Shown: piece by piece, positions 39,020 through 46,862 of the stretch | Layout: each line of letters opens with the position of its first letter | How positions within the stretch are numbered: position 1 is the stretch's first letter | Assembly (NCBI GenBank): GCA_029948255.1 | Contig: JALIZF010001485.1 | Location: forward strand, 1 to 64,000 | Reading direction: 5' to 3' | Length of the DNA: 64,000 bases | Source of the DNA: Telmatactis stephensoni | Taxonomy: Eukaryota > Cnidaria > Anthozoa > Actiniaria > Isophelliidae | Position numbers and translations under genes: made by a program | The notes under the pieces: generated by a model | Database searches by the model: none | Seen by the model: the letters and a program-made list of their open reading frames with translations, nothing else | Told to the model about the DNA's origin: nothing

Positions 39020-41192
39020 ATAGAGTTCCTTTTAAAGCCAGTTTGTAAAATTGATCGGCTGTCATTTTTTGTTCTTTTAAGACTTTGTGTTCAAGATTTT
39101 CATATGGTCTTCCTGTTTTTGTATATTTATCATCATTAAATAGGAGTTGTTTTGATTTATCCATATTAGATCGTCTAGCGACATGAGCTAAGTATCTTGC
39201 TTGCAGTGTTGCTATATAACTCTGTTATCTATGTTGTTTTACAGATGCGTAGTAGGTCAATGTTTGTATATCTAAATTCAGTGTCTTGGTCGTCATCATC
39301 AGCTGTTTTGTGTTCTTTTCCATCTTTTCTAGCGAATCCATTCTTGATCATTCTCCGGAGCATACCATAATAACAGCTATTAACTTTTCTTGCTTGGGTG
39401 ATGTTTAGATTCCAGGTTTGTGCCGCTGTATGTAAGACGGCTTCTTACAAATGCATTTAGAAATAGCATACGTATTGGCAGGCTAATGTTCAAGTTCAGA
39501 AGCTTTGATTTTAGTTCTTGGAATTTAGCTTCTGCAAAGTTCATACGAAGAGTGATTTCTGCATTGCCTGTTGTTGGTTCATCATATCTAATGTCACTTC
39601 CTAAGTACCTGAAGATCTCTACATTCATGATATCTACATTATGAAGCTTGACAATAGAGGTTGGGTAAGGATCTGTGCTCAGGAGATATTTATAGTTAAA
39701 TATCATAGATTTGGTCTTTTTTACATTGATCGTTAGGTTAAATCGATCTAGAGTTTTGTTAAGTAGATTGAAGGCTGCTTGTAGAGTGTCCTTACTTGGG
39801 GCAAATAATGCTATGTCATCAGCATATCCAACCCAACTATTTTTATTCGTTCCCATGTATGTCTTTTGACCTCTTGATTCCCTGGCAGAAGCAGTTGATC
39901 TCACTCTGTATTTAAATTCAACATTCAGGTTTGCTTTCCTACACTCATCAATGTAGATTCGCATCACAAAGTCCATCATCAAGTTAAAAAGGAATGGACT
40001 TTCTGGACCACCTTGTCTCACTCCAGAAGTGGTTATAAATTTGTCATCTGGTATTTCAGATAGGCTTTTGTTGTATCTTCATATATGGCTTCATGACTGT
40101 ATGCACTCAGTCGTGCTTAAATCATCTGGAATCGCATATAAAGTATTGGAATAATAACCATCTTCTGAAACATGATCAAATGCCGAGCTCAGATCGACAA
40201 CAGTACAAATATTGTTACTTGCTTCGATCTGAGATTTGCTGTACCTCTTTATATGTAGATCCATCATTCAGTGTTGTGTCCTTGTCTGAACCTTTTGTGA
40301 TCTAGAGCTGCAGTTATACCATTCTTTCAATCTGGATAGAAATTCTTATTACGATGATTTTGCATAAGGTTGAACCGATCTGTAATCCTCTGTAGATCCT
40401 GGAGTCTTTAGCTGGTCCTTTTGCAGTACCTTTCCATAATACGACTAGTCTACTGTGGCTAAAACTATCTGGTGTTGTCTTTGTTTTCCAAATTATATCA
40501 ATTAGTTGTTTAATTCTTGCACTAATTTGGGTGATTCAGCTGCGTACTTTATCAATTCAGCATTTATAACATTGGCAGCTTTTTTATTCTTCATTGACTT
40601 TATAGTTTCGTTTATTTCATTAGGTTGTATGGTGAGCTCATTATTGATCTCTATATCATCAGTTATGTCTTTTGGAGGGTTCTGTAATAACCCTTGTGAT
40701 GTGTTAGTTCCCATTAGGTTCACATATTGGTACTTTAGGGTTAAAGTCCACGGTGGTATTTGAAAAATGTTGTCAGCTTAGTTGGTGAGCAATTTCAGTG
40801 TGGACTTTGTGTTCTTAAAGATGGTGTTATCCTTTAGGTTGCACTGAAAAGGATCTTCAATTTCACGTTTTGCTGCAAAACTGATTGATGTGGCAAAACT
40901 TCTAATTTTTAGACGCTCTACATTATTTAAATAATTGATACGTTTTTTAATTTTCTTTGTTATTCTCTTAGTATTCTTTAGAATCTCTTGGCCATTGTGA
41001 CTGAGCTCTTTGATCTAGGAGAGTATTTAATTCTGTATCGTTCTTATACAGGGCATTATGTTTTGTGTGCTTTTTATTTTTTTTGTAGTAACAGCTTTTC
41101 AGATGTTTCTTTGAGAGTTTTAATCAGACAGTCCGTTATATCTTGTGCTATGGGCAGAGTTGATGTTAATTCCAGTTTAGAGTTGACCTGTC
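39020..41192 (-). pseudogene. LINE reverse transcriptase region, decayed
   Basis: On the minus strand, below the hAT insertion. The longest open piece (40021-39380) has the RT palm: RQGGPESPFLFNLMMD, the catalytic GYADDIALFA and a downstream thumb ending RSRLTYSGTNLE. Upstream, 40723-40502 is a fragment with MKNKKAANVINAELIKY, the typical template-grip motif. Frameshifts and stops separate the parts. It is the continuation of the endonuclease frame at 45373-46428, from which it is split by the hAT. Confidence 0.85.
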
Positions 41193-41274
41193 CAGGGGCG
41201 GATCCAGGATTTTTTTTAGGGGGGTGACTTTTGATTTTGTAAGAGTTAACATATTTACCTTAAAAGTTACTTCC

Positions 41275-44200
41275 TTATAAAATAAAAGACTCCGTCATCC
41301 TTCTTGGATGCTTTGCCATAAATGTACGACAAATTTCCTGTTTGTCATTGTTCACCCATGAATCGTTCATTGCTATCACAGCTAAATCTATTAGTCTGTC
41401 CGTTGTCATGCTAGACCTAAGCCATGTGTGCAGTCTTCTAAGGCATGAAAACGAACGTTCAGCTTCAGTGCTACCAATCGGTAAAATGGCCAGTATTATA
41501 AGCAGTTCTCGAATATTAGGAAAAAATATATCATCTGCATGGTTGGCAACAATGGATGTGATTGATTCATCGTTTCTGTTTTCCCGTCTTTTCCAATAGC
41601 ATGCCCACCTGAAAAGCTCACCTTCAAAGCATGCAGGGAGTGGAAGCAGATGCTTCCATTTCTCTTTCAGTACTTGCATCAGATTTGTCAATTCGTCATC
41701 TGACTTTGCACAAATAACAGAGGGAACCAGTGCACAAAGTTCGTAATGTGCACGTTTATCCTTGCTGAAACGGGATGTAAGCTCCGATGATATGGTATCT
41801 AAAAAGGGGATTACAACAACTCGCTTCCAGTACGTCTTGACTGTTTCTGCAGGTACATTTTCTCTGTTGGTTTGTCGTCGATTGGTACGTGGCTGCTGTT
41901 CTTCTGAACCCACTAACGTCGCCAGAGCGAGAACCTTGAGATACATTCTGTCATAACATGTATCAATGTTGCGGCGAATCTCGTTATAAACATGTGTGAC
42001 CTCTTCTATCTTCTGGAAGCCAAAATACACTTCAACTAAACGACCTTGTAAAGAGCTGACAATAGGATGCATGGGCTCCAGCAATTCCATACAGCAAACA
42101 AATGTTACGATGTGTGAAAAACTTTTCATTGTTTGTCTTAGGCCATTAGCCAAAGTTCTTGTGTTTGCGTCCCAAGCCCAGGAATCTTCTTCTGGACACT
42201 TAAATCGCTCATCATCTGAAGGGTCGTATATTTCATCCAAAGCCATTACTATGTAATGGTAGAGATCAAATATAGTCTGAAATGTTGTATGCCGCTCAAC
42301 CCATCTTGTTTTGCACAAATTTTTGAGCCATCGTTTTTTCGTTTCACCTTGTGCCAAAACATCAATTACCATATTCAAAAGTGCCTGTCTTTTTGGTGAA
42401 TTATCAAAGAAGCTGTAAAGCTCCCGACAGGTGTCTAGCATATTTTGAATGGATCTCATTTCGCAAGCATGGCATATGGCTAAGTTCAAAGAATGGAGGC
42501 AGCATCCTTGGTAGTCAGCGTCGGGTGCGTGTCTAAGAATTTCAGCTTGGACGCCTTTACTGCTTGAGCTCATAGATGACGTAGTGTCATAGGATTGTCC
42601 TCGACAATCAGTAATGTTAATAGAATGCTCATTAAGACTTTGTAAAAGGGCCGTTGCTATTGACTTTCCCGTTGTTCTAGTTAAATCACACAAATCAATC
42701 AAAACTTCACGTTTTACTGGTTGACTGGGATCAGAAATAAAATCTAAAAATCTTAAGCAAACAGATAGAATCTCACGTCCGTGAGATGTGGTTTCATCTG
42801 CGATTAATGAAAAATGACTGCATTTTGCAAGACAGTCTCGGATTTTCTTACGACTGAGCTCAGCTATCACCTCTATTATTTCATTTTGTATGGTCTTGCT
42901 TGTATAGAGCGCATTTTTTGGACCACACTGTAGATGCTCTTTAAGGGTAGGATTACTCAGTGATAACAGACGGATGATAGCTATGAAATTCCCTTCATTG
43001 TATACAGGAGCTTCGGCAAATTGAATCTTATCATCTCTATGGCCACGTAAAGGAATTTGCTGTTTAGCACATAGATTCACAACATCGACAATATTTGGAA
43101 GTATTGCTTCGTTTTTTCTAACATTCTGGTTTACGATCTCATCAAGTTGTACATCAATTCTTTTATTGATGTTTTGCATTTGAGCTTTAAGAAGCGTCGC
43201 TCTTTCTTGCGCTTTTTTGTGATAGCCACTTGATTCATGTCCACATATCTTTTCTTTCGATTTCTTGTAATTTTTGAATGCCGTTTTAACAAAAGCTCCT
43301 AAAGATAGTTTCTCTTTTTTTGTTAAAAACAAAAGACAAATGGTGCACCAACCGCCGCAGCATGATGGATTAGCACTGTAGGACAGCCATTTATACTGGT
43401 CCAACCATTTTATTTGAAATTTAACTGTTTTGTTTTTTGGTACTCTTTGTTTATCGAGGACACATTCTGAAGATGGTCGCCAGCATTTTTCAAGAAACTC
43501 CAGTTTTTCATTATCTGATAATTTTTCAACAAATTCGTAGGATGTTAACTTACTGACATCGAATACTGACACAGCCGATTCGCCTTGGGTTTCTTCTTGG
43601 TCGTGATGGATAACATTGTCTAGGAAATGGATAATGGGGGCGTTAACATGGTATATAGCATGGATAAAAAAGAAAAGTAGAGGGTTACGTAATACAAAAA
43701 CGCAAATGGTTACACAAGCATTTAATAAAATTCTGTGCTATGTTTATTACAACATGCTTTTATTCATATCCGTCAAATGTAAGAAACTTCAATTCTCGTT
43801 TCAGGTCCTCCCACTCTTCCATATTGTGGTTTACTGATATAACTAGTTTATTTAGATAGGGGAGAATTTCCGCCAGGTTACGAACAGACTGTAAACTATA
43901 GGATCCAACATGAGCAATATTCAGCTCTTCCAGGCACTGGCGATTGAATACGACTTCAATTATGTCTAATTCAGTTAACTGGTAACAACACCTCAAATTC
44001 AACTTTTTTAAGCGAGGACAAACATTCTCAAGTGAAAATATAGATCTAGCAGCAGAGGCTTCTACATAAATACACCATTCTAATGATAACTCCTCTAGGA
44101 AATGCATGTTAACAAGAAATGATATATCAACCATTTGAAAATTTGAAGTTAAGTCGAGCGAAATAATATTGCAGCACATAGAAAGAGAATTAGAAATATA

Positions 44201-45052
44201 ATCCGTTGACATTTCTGAGAAAGAAAAATCCCCATTAAAATAGAGGTGTCTAAAAGACTTTGCATGGCTGAATATATTCTCAAATGTTCTTTTATCATAG
44301 CGAATGCTTGGAAAATCTTCTAAACTGCCAAATGACTTCCAAAGATAACCATCATTCACTAAATCTCTAAATCGTCTACAAATAGGTGAAACATTGATAA
44401 TTAAATCCCTTAACGGGATATTGCTTAGGATAACCAATAGAACCTCGTCTGGCAGGGAAAGAATATTTATTTCTGGGAAGTCACCTGAGCTGTCTTTATC
44501 TTGCTTTGAGTCAGTTTGTGTACTGTTGGGATCGCTGCGTATTTCAGTCAATGTCTCGAGAGAGCCACGAAATTCTGAGGAGTCCTCACTCGAATAATCT
44601 GCAATCACATTAATACTACACTTAGTTGAAGTTCAGTTTACGCTTTTTTTGGAAAAATGAAATTTCGGCTATATTTTTGACTGATGAGGTGTGCAAAAAT
44701 GAACCAATTCAGTAGATTCATATGAAATTGATATCCCAATCGATTTGCTACTGTTAAAATATCGTGATAGTTAAAGGCACTATACCGCTGAGTCATTGAA
44801 TCCCTAAACACTTGATTAATTAATCAGTAAGAAGTATTAATAATTATGAAGTTAAATATTTACTTTAATACCTTTTGATCTAGCAAGTCGTTTTGGTAAC
44901 GGTGATCGATGTGAATTATCTTCGTTATTGCTGTTAAAAAAAAACATTTATACTATCTTAAAATCTTCGCTGGGAATGTAGCCTAATAGTTCTAATAAAT
45001 ATATAATCTCTTACCTTCTCTTCCTAACAAAAAAGCTTTCTATCTTCTTCAT
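41275..45052 (-). CDS. hAT transposase with TTF-type zinc finger (ZMYM1-like)
   Basis: Three exons: 45052-45015, 44930-44872 and 43619-41275; 813 residues with no stop. Leader MKKIESFFVRKR, then a basic PKRLARSK stretch. The TTF-type zinc finger has Cys near 119-127 (CCGGWCTIC) and a His pair (GHESSGYH) near 160-166. The RNase-H-like catalytic core shows DETTS (Asp about 307) and GQSYDTTSSM (Asp about 377), then KTRWVERH. The C-terminal hAT dimerisation region has ILPIGSTEAERSFSCLRRL. The enzyme would cut and rejoin the element's CAGGGG ends. The third exon is reached by splicing over the F-box exon; its acceptor is CCATTTCCTAG. Related genes are often labelled zinc finger MYM-type 1-like in invertebrates. 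Confidence 0.92.
43760..45052 (-). CDS. F-box/leucine-rich-repeat protein encoded inside the hAT element
   Basis: Exons 45052-45015 and 44930-44872 are those of the transposase; the third is an alternative terminal exon, 44598-43760, with acceptor GATTGCAG in the same phase. Predicted 311 residues. After the 32-residue leader comes an acidic Ser-rich linker, then an F-box at about 79-121 (LSLPDEVLLVILSNIPLRDL...CRRFRDLVNDGYLW) and LRR-like repeats from about 165 to 280 (LEELSLEWC, LKKLNLRCCYQLTELDI, LEELNIAHVGS). F-box proteins of this type bind SKP1 and bring substrates to SCF ubiquitin ligase. AATAAA overlaps the stop codon and another lies just beyond, so the exon has its own polyadenylation signals. 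It lies wholly between the transposon ends, 143 bases from the transposase exon. Substrate unknown; a captured host FBXL gene is the likely origin. Confidence 0.85.
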
Positions 45053-45372
45053 ATTGAAGTGTGAGGAAAGACAGGTAACGTCGACCATACGTTGTTCTCT
45101 GACTGGGGGCAACGCGCGTTCGCAAAAGTTTCCATCGGGCGGGAAATTTTCCTGCCAAATGAACCAAAGCTCCGCGAATGCATGTGCGTTCTTTAGATGC
45201 CCGAGATGCTAAAAAGTGTTAGTCCTTTTGAAAAGTGTTGTTTATCAAAATATCAACCAATTATTTTCCTATTTCCTTGATATGAATATTTTTATATAAT
45301 ATTATATTCAATTTATCCAGGAAAAAGGGGGGTGAACGTTCACCCAGTTCACCCTCCCTGTATCCGCCCCTG

Positions 45373-46428
45373 CTGTCGTGTATATTCATCTTGGATCTTT
45401 GGAAGTAGTAATGATTTGAGATCGATTTTCTTATTGCTACTCAGTGGAGTTTTGCGATGTTTATATCTTGCAGCTCTGTTACATGGTGTTGTTAAGGTTG
45501 CAACTAGTAGTTTGTGGTCTGTGGCGAAATCATATCCACGTCGTATTCTACAGTCTGTCATACATTTTTGTAGATGTTTATCTGTTAGGATATAGTCAAG
45601 GACCTTTCTTACTCCAGTGCCTGAGTACCAGCTGTAACGATGGATAGGTCGATGTTTAAAGAATGTGTTGCTTATACACAGACTGTGTGTTTTGCAATAG
45701 TTGATAAGTCTCTCTCCATTATCATTGCTGATGTGATTGATATAATTGCAATTTATGTCACCTCCATCAAATCTTGAATTTCTTAGAGCTATGTCAGTTG
45801 TCGCATTCATATCAGCCAGGATCACAAGCTTTTGGTGTTTATTGTCTCGTACAGTGCATTTATAAAGATCATCGTAGAAGATGTTCTTTTGGTGTGTTCT
45901 CGTTGCTGGTTCATTTTCACAGTTGGGAGGGGCATATGCAATAATAATCTTAAGTCGGTAGCCATAGTACGTAATGGCAGCAGTTAGAAGTCTAGCGTTA
46001 ATGTAATTAACTTCTTCAATAACTATTTCCTTGCATATCCGAATCAGTATGCCTACACCAGCTTCTCGTTTTTTGGTGTATCCTGACCAGTGGAGTTCAT
46101 ACTTGTTGTCCTTGTGTTTAATGACAGCTGCAATAGAGTCAAAACTTATTTTACCAGTGTCAAATTTAGCTAGTAAACGCTTGAATTCATTTAGGTTATT
46201 TGCTGCTGATTCCTTGCTAGATAAACTGTTCCAGGCTATTGCTCCTCTATATCGTATGGAGTTCCTGGTAAAATTCGTTTCTGGTCTTGGAAGGATGATG
46301 TCTCCATTTCGTCTACTTTCGCGGCTTGAGTTCCTCTGTACAAATAAGTCCTTGAATTCTGGAACGGTGTAACCCTTTAAGCATTTGAAAACAAACTCTG
46401 TCAATCGCATCTTGTATATTGTTTCCAA
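45373..46428 (-). pseudogene. chimeric LINE frame: RT C-terminal piece joined to an APE endonuclease
   Basis: The first 90 residues look like the C-terminal end of a CR1/Jockey reverse transcriptase (FVFKCLKGYTVPEFKDLF, PRPETNFTRNSIRYRGAIAWNSL). From about residue 95 the frame becomes an APE-type endonuclease lacking its N-terminus (SGYTKKREAGVGILI, IIAYAPPN, LILADMNA-like VILADMNATT, a YSWYSGTG motif and a terminal DHKLLVATL). The order RT-end then endonuclease is reversed relative to a normal LINE, so the joint at about 46158 is a rearrangement that happens to be in frame. The open frame runs on into the hAT end to a stop at 45349. Without the insertion it continues at 41187 downward. Confidence 0.8.
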
Positions 46429-46862
46429 ACCGTCCCATTTTGTATGCGTTAAGACGTCTTTGGCACTAGTGTCCCATGGTAGACCGTATACAATACTATT
46501 TGCACCAGCCCCCCTCCCTGTAAATAATGTCTGGTCCCTGAAATTAAAACAACATCATGACCTTTGATATTGATAACAGCTACATGTATATCAGTCGCCT
46601 TCCTTGTGATTTGAAAGTCTGAGCCAATCATTTGATGCCACATTTTTCTATTACATGCATTTTGCTGCACAGGAAAAATTCTACTAATTAGAAAATAAGA
46701 TATATCGAATATATAGATTGCACTTGAAAATTTTCTCAGTTCATTTTGTTTACCTACAATATGTATTATGAGTCTCAAGAGGCTAACTGATTAAACCCTT
46801 TCTATTACAGGTCAAAAGTAAAATATAGTCTCTGTGGGTACACGATTGTTTCAGTCTGAAAC

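Follow-up and report, generated by a model that had tools for sequence, protein, structure and literature searches.

The 64,000-nucleotide stretch of the actiniarian Telmatactis stephensoni analyzed here (assembly GCA_029948255.1, contig JALIZF010001485.1, forward strand, positions 1 to 64,000; hereafter the window) harbors a 4.18-kb hAT transposon at 41193-45372, whose two genes, both on the minus strand, encode an F-box/leucine-rich-repeat (LRR) protein and a transposase. Comparison of the element with its relatives leads us to regard it as nearly certain that the F-box exon has a function in these transposons and is maintained by selection. An initial annotation of the window had proposed that a hAT element encodes an F-box/LRR gene of its own, and this proposal was supported by further copies and families, by a second species, and by purifying selection. 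The element is laid out as follows.

41188..41192: left target-site duplication, CTGTC, read from the sequence
41193..41208, plus strand: left terminal inverted repeat, CAGGGGCGGATCCAGG, 16 nt, 94% complementary to the right end
41275..43619, minus strand: predicted transposase exon; acceptor TTCCTAG before 43619, phase 1
43764-43759 and 43748-43743, minus strand: two AATAAA signals, at and after the F-box stop and before the transposase acceptor
43760..44598, minus strand: predicted F-box/LRR terminal exon; acceptor TTGCAG before 44598, phase 1; stop codon at 43762-43760
44872..44930, minus strand: predicted leader exon 2; donor AAAAG/GTATTAAA, phase 1; same layout in a second transposon family, family B
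45015..45052, minus strand: predicted leader exon 1, MKKIESFFVRKR; donor GTAAGAG, phase 2; resembles a PCNA-interacting protein (PIP) motif, with IxxFF but without the Q
45357..45372, minus strand: right terminal inverted repeat, complementary to the left end
45373..45377: right target-site duplication, CTGTC, read from the sequence

The F-box open reading frame (ORF; 44632-43760, minus strand, 290 aa), the initial part of which is translated intron, matched the F-box-like domain PF12937 (E=3.1e-11; 43.3 bits against a cut-off of 24.3) and the F-box domain PF00646 (E=2.6e-7), together with an LRR_4 match (25.9 bits) slightly below the 27-bit cut-off. Its profile matched FBXL2 (1.2e-28), FBXL17, and SKP2, their LRRs included, and the simplest reading of this FBXL-like profile is a putative transposon-encoded receptor of an SKP1-cullin-F-box (SCF) ubiquitin ligase. 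The transposase ORF (43737-41275, minus strand, 820 aa) follows by 26 nt on the same strand and carries DUF4371 (E=5.6e-15) and Dimer_Tnp_hAT (E=6.7e-5); its named relatives, among the 120 listed of the 238 found, are animal proteins, e.g., from Porites, Myxine, Nymphon, and Antedon. The two same-strand products read by the initial annotation were thus confirmed as an F-box/LRR protein and a DUF4371/hAT transposase, the F-box lying upstream (5') of the transposase. In the F-box ORF, methionine first appears at residue 141, beyond the F-box (residues 57-100), and in the transposase ORF at residue 187, within DUF4371; because neither ORF has an early methionine, both need upstream exons.

CTGTC stands immediately outside both CAGGGGCGGATCCAGG-type ends, so that the transposon boundaries first proposed were retained. 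The hAT class was likewise borne out, with a duplication of 5 bp, as in hAT5, instead of the usual 8 bp. Copies of the element show 5-bp duplications at four separate sites (CTGTC, GTTGG, CACTG, and CTACT), and the window element has the short matched inverted ends starting with CAG of hAT5 and a hAT dimerization region in its transposase (PF05699, 23.0 bits against a cut-off of 21.4). Passages of PMC12730594 describe 5-bp duplications as a hallmark of hAT5, and we classify the window element as a hAT5-type transposon because its duplication measures 5 bp. An assembly artifact was ruled out by the differing flanks and duplications of the copies, and a chance arrangement by the close match of other copies and the perfect duplications at three further sites.

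An F-box search of the 483-Mb genome returned 71 match rows, which were merged by hand into 62 loci (39 read at E<=1e-5 and 23 at E<=1e-3, each with some 1.3-5 kb of flanking sequence); two rows fell on each of nine loci, those on C1022 lying 6 kb apart, and repeat fetches of L021, L022, L023, and L035 were counted once. Copies of the window family showed 97.7-99.8% nucleotide identity over the stretches read, save for two 93% pieces in one copy. The copies read to both ends had the duplications CTGTC, GTTGG, CACTG, CTACT, and, on C433, CTGTC again, the three non-window sites GTTGG, CACTG, and CTACT each having its own perfect 5-bp duplication. The C433 locus (L016), compared with window positions 41095-45472, shares the insertion site and duplication, has flanks about 99% identical, and retains 2.2 kb of an internally deleted element; it appears to be a duplicated locus or a second haplotype. 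Many copies are broken, and one further copy of the family lacks its left end. In a transposase search (55 of 337 candidates scored), the F-box accompanied the window-type transposase (95-100% match) in 12 of 12 loci and a sister type (55-60% match; C906 twice, C837, C700, C240, and C38) in 6 of 6, partial matches on C296, C232, C236, C113, C917, C1017, and C179 (45-71%) being kept outside the counts. The initial annotation had anticipated the F-box exon in other copies and had named its absence from them as the outcome that would speak against it; the 12 window-type loci all have it. A single host-gene insertion or a nested element was also rejected, as the F-box exon recurs within the same ends across many copies and families.

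The arrangement extends well beyond the window family. A transposase-like partner gene lay just downstream, on the same strand, at 46 of the 62 F-box loci (36 of 39 at the stricter threshold and 10 of 23 at the looser one). Thirty-eight of these partners are DUF4371 transposases belonging to six families that agree in the place, strand, and order of the F-box, and closed units, with matched ends and duplications of 5-6 bp, were found in five families. Family B (L024-L034 and L062, 12 loci) is about 40% identical to the window element in its F-box and 28% in its transposase; 9 of 10 copies are at least 99% identical to L024 in the best piece, and the ends CATGGACGGCGGAA...TTCCGCCGTCCATG are flanked by duplications (AGTAG and GACTC) in two of three copies checked and by none in the third. 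Further closed units are L048 (ends CAGGGCCGTAAC, 6-bp duplication TTGATA), C906:108922-113305 (ends CAGGGGCGGATCTAGG, duplication CAAAC), and L041 (ends CAGGGGCGTGCACAG, duplication TGTAT), in the last of which the F-box gene is a remnant consisting of the LRR part alone; L039 and L046 make up the sixth DUF4371 family. The other eight partners, among them those beside the F-boxes of L040/L045, L044/L057/L058, and L037, are of a second kind, in which a BED-like finger scored under the threshold and the C-terminus is weakly hAT-like (hhalign probability 36%, E 0.0004). This kind appears only weakly tied to hAT and was counted apart as transposase-like; its by-eye reading as a BED-type hAT was unsupported by Pfam, NCBIfam, or PDB, and phmmer against 133 proteins gave nothing.

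The exon also occurs beyond one species, as the proposal of a shared exon had foreseen. The Porites lobata protein P0083 starts with MPKEKQSSLNSFFSKKR, continues with F-box, LRR, and DUF4371 in the same order as the window element, and has a DUF4371 region 60% identical to the window's over 295 aa. A search with the F-box profile yielded 13 proteins, among them P0001, 95% identical to the window, and the metagenome fragment P0002, 59% identical to the L048 F-box; the others look like F-box/LRR proteins of the general kind. Viral contigs searched with the window F-box contained no relatives.

The low ratio of nonsynonymous (dN) to synonymous (dS) divergence expected of a useful F-box was found in the two measurable pairs, L040-L045 (dN 0.183, dS 1.19; dN/dS 0.15) and L036-L046 (dN 0.275, dS 1.26; dN/dS 0.22), some of the copies compared sitting in broken elements. 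Synonymous sites were saturated in six other F-box pairs, whose second positions differed at 0.24-0.43. The partner genes of L040 and L045 (dN 0.152, dS 0.339) showed weaker constraint than their F-boxes.

The two genes of the window element appear to share a beginning. The predicted leader (45052-45015 joined to 44930-44872) fits both exons, giving open products of 311 aa with the F-box and 813 aa with the transposase, and the family B leader, in other letters, follows the same plan and phases (MQRSIKTFFQ...; 270 aa with the F-box and 776 aa with the transposase). The exon 1 pattern had a single match across both strands of the window, and 6 of 12 upstream regions, from five families, contained its [I/L/M/V]xx[F/Y][F/Y/L] core with a phase-2 donor, where about 0.16 hits would be expected from shuffled sequences. 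All 8 of the intervals separating an F-box stop from its partner gene contain AATAAA or ATTAAA (4.3 expected). On the basis of predicted splicing, the F-box seems to occupy the transposase's intron as an alternative terminal exon. PCNA-binding PIP motifs have the form QxxI/L/MxxFF or FY; the complete form is present in the leaders of family B, L047, L048, and Porites, and the L036 leader reads QTKIKWFL. Transposases such as P0018, P0020, and P0026 start with loosely similar motifs, which suggests that the leader may have originated as the transposase's own N-terminus. The shared leader, the alternative-exon layout, and the swapping of modules are additions to what the initial annotation had described.

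Evidence for such swapping comes from conflicting trees. The transposases of the window, L047, and Porites form one clade (100/100), whereas their F-boxes fall in three lineages, a common clade being rejected by the approximately unbiased (AU) test (p-AU 4e-35); the group tested was chosen from the transposases after the identities had been seen. The F-box tree comprised 12 rows, without L039, a near-copy of L036, and the transposase tree 8 rows, without the unalignable L040 kind; the Porites chain was cut by eye at residue 262, and the tree program warned of long branches. In agreement with this conflict, the window and L047 are 55.6% identical in their transposases and 26% in their F-boxes. 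The F-boxes of L044 and L047 are sisters (100/99) despite partner proteins that do not match, and those of L040, L045, and L044 do not form a clade (p-AU 2e-106). Between L040 and L045, the partner gene is 98.5% identical over 2.25 kb, its first 0.46 kb 77%, and the F-box 75%, as though a different 5' half had been substituted. Judging from these trees, the F-box is an accessory cassette swapped among transposases. The exchange reading rests on the DUF4371 trio of the window, L047, and Porites, exchange with the second transposase class being a weakened claim.

We propose the following mechanism for an autonomous hAT5 element with an alternative F-box exon. The two short leader exons (MKKIESFFVRKR...) would have two alternative splicing partners: the F-box exon, equipped with a stop codon and poly(A)-like signals of its own, and, when that exon is skipped, the transposase exon. 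By binding SKP1, the F-box protein would serve as a substrate receptor of the host SCF ubiquitin ligase, and the shared PIP-like leader, a hint of activity where DNA is replicated or repaired, would recruit it to PCNA at such sites, where the transposase would also work. Its LRR part would tag a host factor, one that holds the element in check or directs the repair of excision sites. Because receptors and transposases have apparently been reshuffled, a host factor is the likelier substrate, and we consider it a better guess than the transposase as the LRR target. For this mechanism as a whole, in which the splicing, the binding of SKP1 and PCNA, and the host target are predictions, we regard the chances as evenly balanced. 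Somewhat more tentatively, we suggest that there is a class of animal hAT transposons with their own SCF receptor, held at PCNA by an alternatively spliced shared N-terminus, and that these receptors are traded as counter-defense cassettes, each LRR lineage pointing to a restricting or steering host factor.

The same gene layout could also serve self-regulation, with the F-box exon limiting the transposase by diverting splicing or polyadenylation, by competition acting through the leader that both share, or by directing the transposase itself to the proteasome. The shared leader and alternative terminal exon would suit this explanation, as would, weakly in view of the 4.3 expected, the poly(A)-like signals in all eight intervals, but an LRR part that reads the transposase should track the transposase tree, and the divergence of the window and L047 F-boxes and the rejected common clade run counter to this. 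We consider self-regulation unlikely as the main role, and splice competition, one part of it, may operate in addition to the proposed targeting of a host factor. It is more doubtful still that F-box/LRR and transposase act in one protein, the F-box tuning the transposase or taking it to SCF: P0083 is such a chain, but it stops inside DUF4371 and may itself be a gene-model error, and in both the window and family B the F-box ORF has its own stop before the transposase acceptor. Transposons capture host DNA, and a captured, functionless passenger would fit the many broken copies; this explanation is nonetheless highly improbable, given the common place, strand, and order of the F-box in six DUF4371 families, a dN/dS far below 1, an intact F-box in family B, with its nearly identical copies, and the combination of F-box and DUF4371 in a second species.

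Several observations count against a functional F-box exon or against the mechanism built on it. No partner gene was found within the 1.3-5 kb read at 16 of the 62 F-box loci, 13 of which are short matches (<130 aa), the longer ones being on C212, C316:489k, and C203:710k. Among eight control transposase loci read on their upstream side, two had an F-box (C906:39k and C38) and six had none, one of the six (C67) also being without a transposase in the stretch read, which leaves at least five loci in this genome with a DUF4371 transposase but no F-box seen upstream. Such loci indicate that the F-box is dispensable for hATs as such, and it is a feature of some hAT lineages, not all. The leader pattern was formulated after the first examples had been seen and was not found in 6 of the 12 upstream regions searched, and the window leader itself, MKKIESFF, has M in place of Q, leaving the PIP form incomplete. 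P0083 is the only F-box carrier among the 120 listed relatives, and its joining of F-box and DUF4371 in one chain may reflect a fused product or an error in the gene model. The fold model of the F-box protein is weak (pLDDT 57.5), and although FBXL2 and SKP2 were its top Foldseek rows, no Foldseek match fell below E 0.001.

Some neighboring features deserve mention. At L073 (C316:489397-489924), L074 (C203:710711-711130), L036 (C212), and L079 (C238), the sequence read holds an F-box ORF (204-339 aa) but no hAT partner; these ORFs are candidate adopted or host genes. On the downstream side of an F-box ORF with no neighboring transposase lies an ORF of 300 aa (L036:2-901, minus strand), for which Pfam gave nothing above cut-off. 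Adjoining the window element is a 401-aa ORF (45349-46554, minus strand) that, read by eye, resembles the endonuclease part of a non-LTR (long terminal repeat) retrotransposon. Genome-wide, the end motif CAGGGGCGGATCNAG (<=2 mismatches) occurred 5888 times forward and 6084 times in reverse, against 184 and 167 for a backward control, and some pairs are only about 160-180 bp apart (L002 and L005); such abundant, closely spaced motifs point to a very large number of short non-autonomous elements that share these ends.

If the receptors do degrade host factors, their substrates, which proteomics could identify, would name animal proteins that restrain DNA transposons or repair excision sites. Different receptors beside sister transposases resemble the outcome of an arms race and would provide natural variants for tests. 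The arrangement hints that mobile DNA turns the protein-disposal machinery of the cell to its own advantage.

The initial annotation knew of no described hAT element of this kind, and our literature searches, which covered open-license literature, likewise found no published report of a hAT element with an F-box and no description of a cut-and-paste transposon bringing its own SCF receptor. SCF ligases are used by some viruses and injected bacterial effectors, according to article titles. In having an F-box apparently followed by leucine-rich repeats, the window protein resembles, by profile match, FBXL proteins such as SKP2, FBXL2, and FBXL17; unlike them, it is transposon-borne, with a short LRR part and a PIP-like leader. 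OTU proteases act on ubiquitin, and two of the 120 listed relatives of the window transposase (P0045 and P0057) combine an N-terminal OTU domain (PF02338), DUF4371, and hAT dimerization in one chain. They are of the same DUF4371/hAT kind, with a ubiquitin-system domain in front, but unlike the window element they consist of a single chain and have no F-box; hATs of the DUF4371 kind may repeatedly acquire parts of the ubiquitin system. At L040, an OTU/otubain-like ORF (1-711) lies upstream of the F-box; it was excluded as part of the element, a CAGGGTCC motif standing at 1126, between OTU and F-box, with no matching far end.

The Caenorhabditis F-box genes with a Mariner helix-turn-helix, as outlined in parts of PMC12062965, similarly combine an F-box with a piece of a transposon, but that case runs the opposite way, host genes having captured a transposon domain. 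With the hAT5 and hAT6 transposons (Kapitonov and Jurka 2007, as cited in PMC12730594), as far as they are characterized there, our elements share duplications of 5 bp (window, family B, L041, and C906) or 6 bp (L048), the dimerization region, and short CAG-type ends; they differ in a second gene, F-box/LRR, which apparently has its leader exons in common with the transposase. A further parallel concerns the TET/JBP dioxygenase genes of fungal DNA transposons, hAT included, for which passages of Kojima 2025 (PMC12730594) report transmission between lineages on phylogenetic grounds. Accessory genes that pass between DNA transposon lineages are thus already known, and the F-box in a hAT is apparently new. 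In both systems, the accessory gene is present in several transposon lineages and is exchanged between them; TET/JBP is an enzyme acting against DNA methylation in fungi, whereas the gene described here would supply a putative ubiquitin-ligase receptor, with a predicted shared leader and alternative terminal exon.

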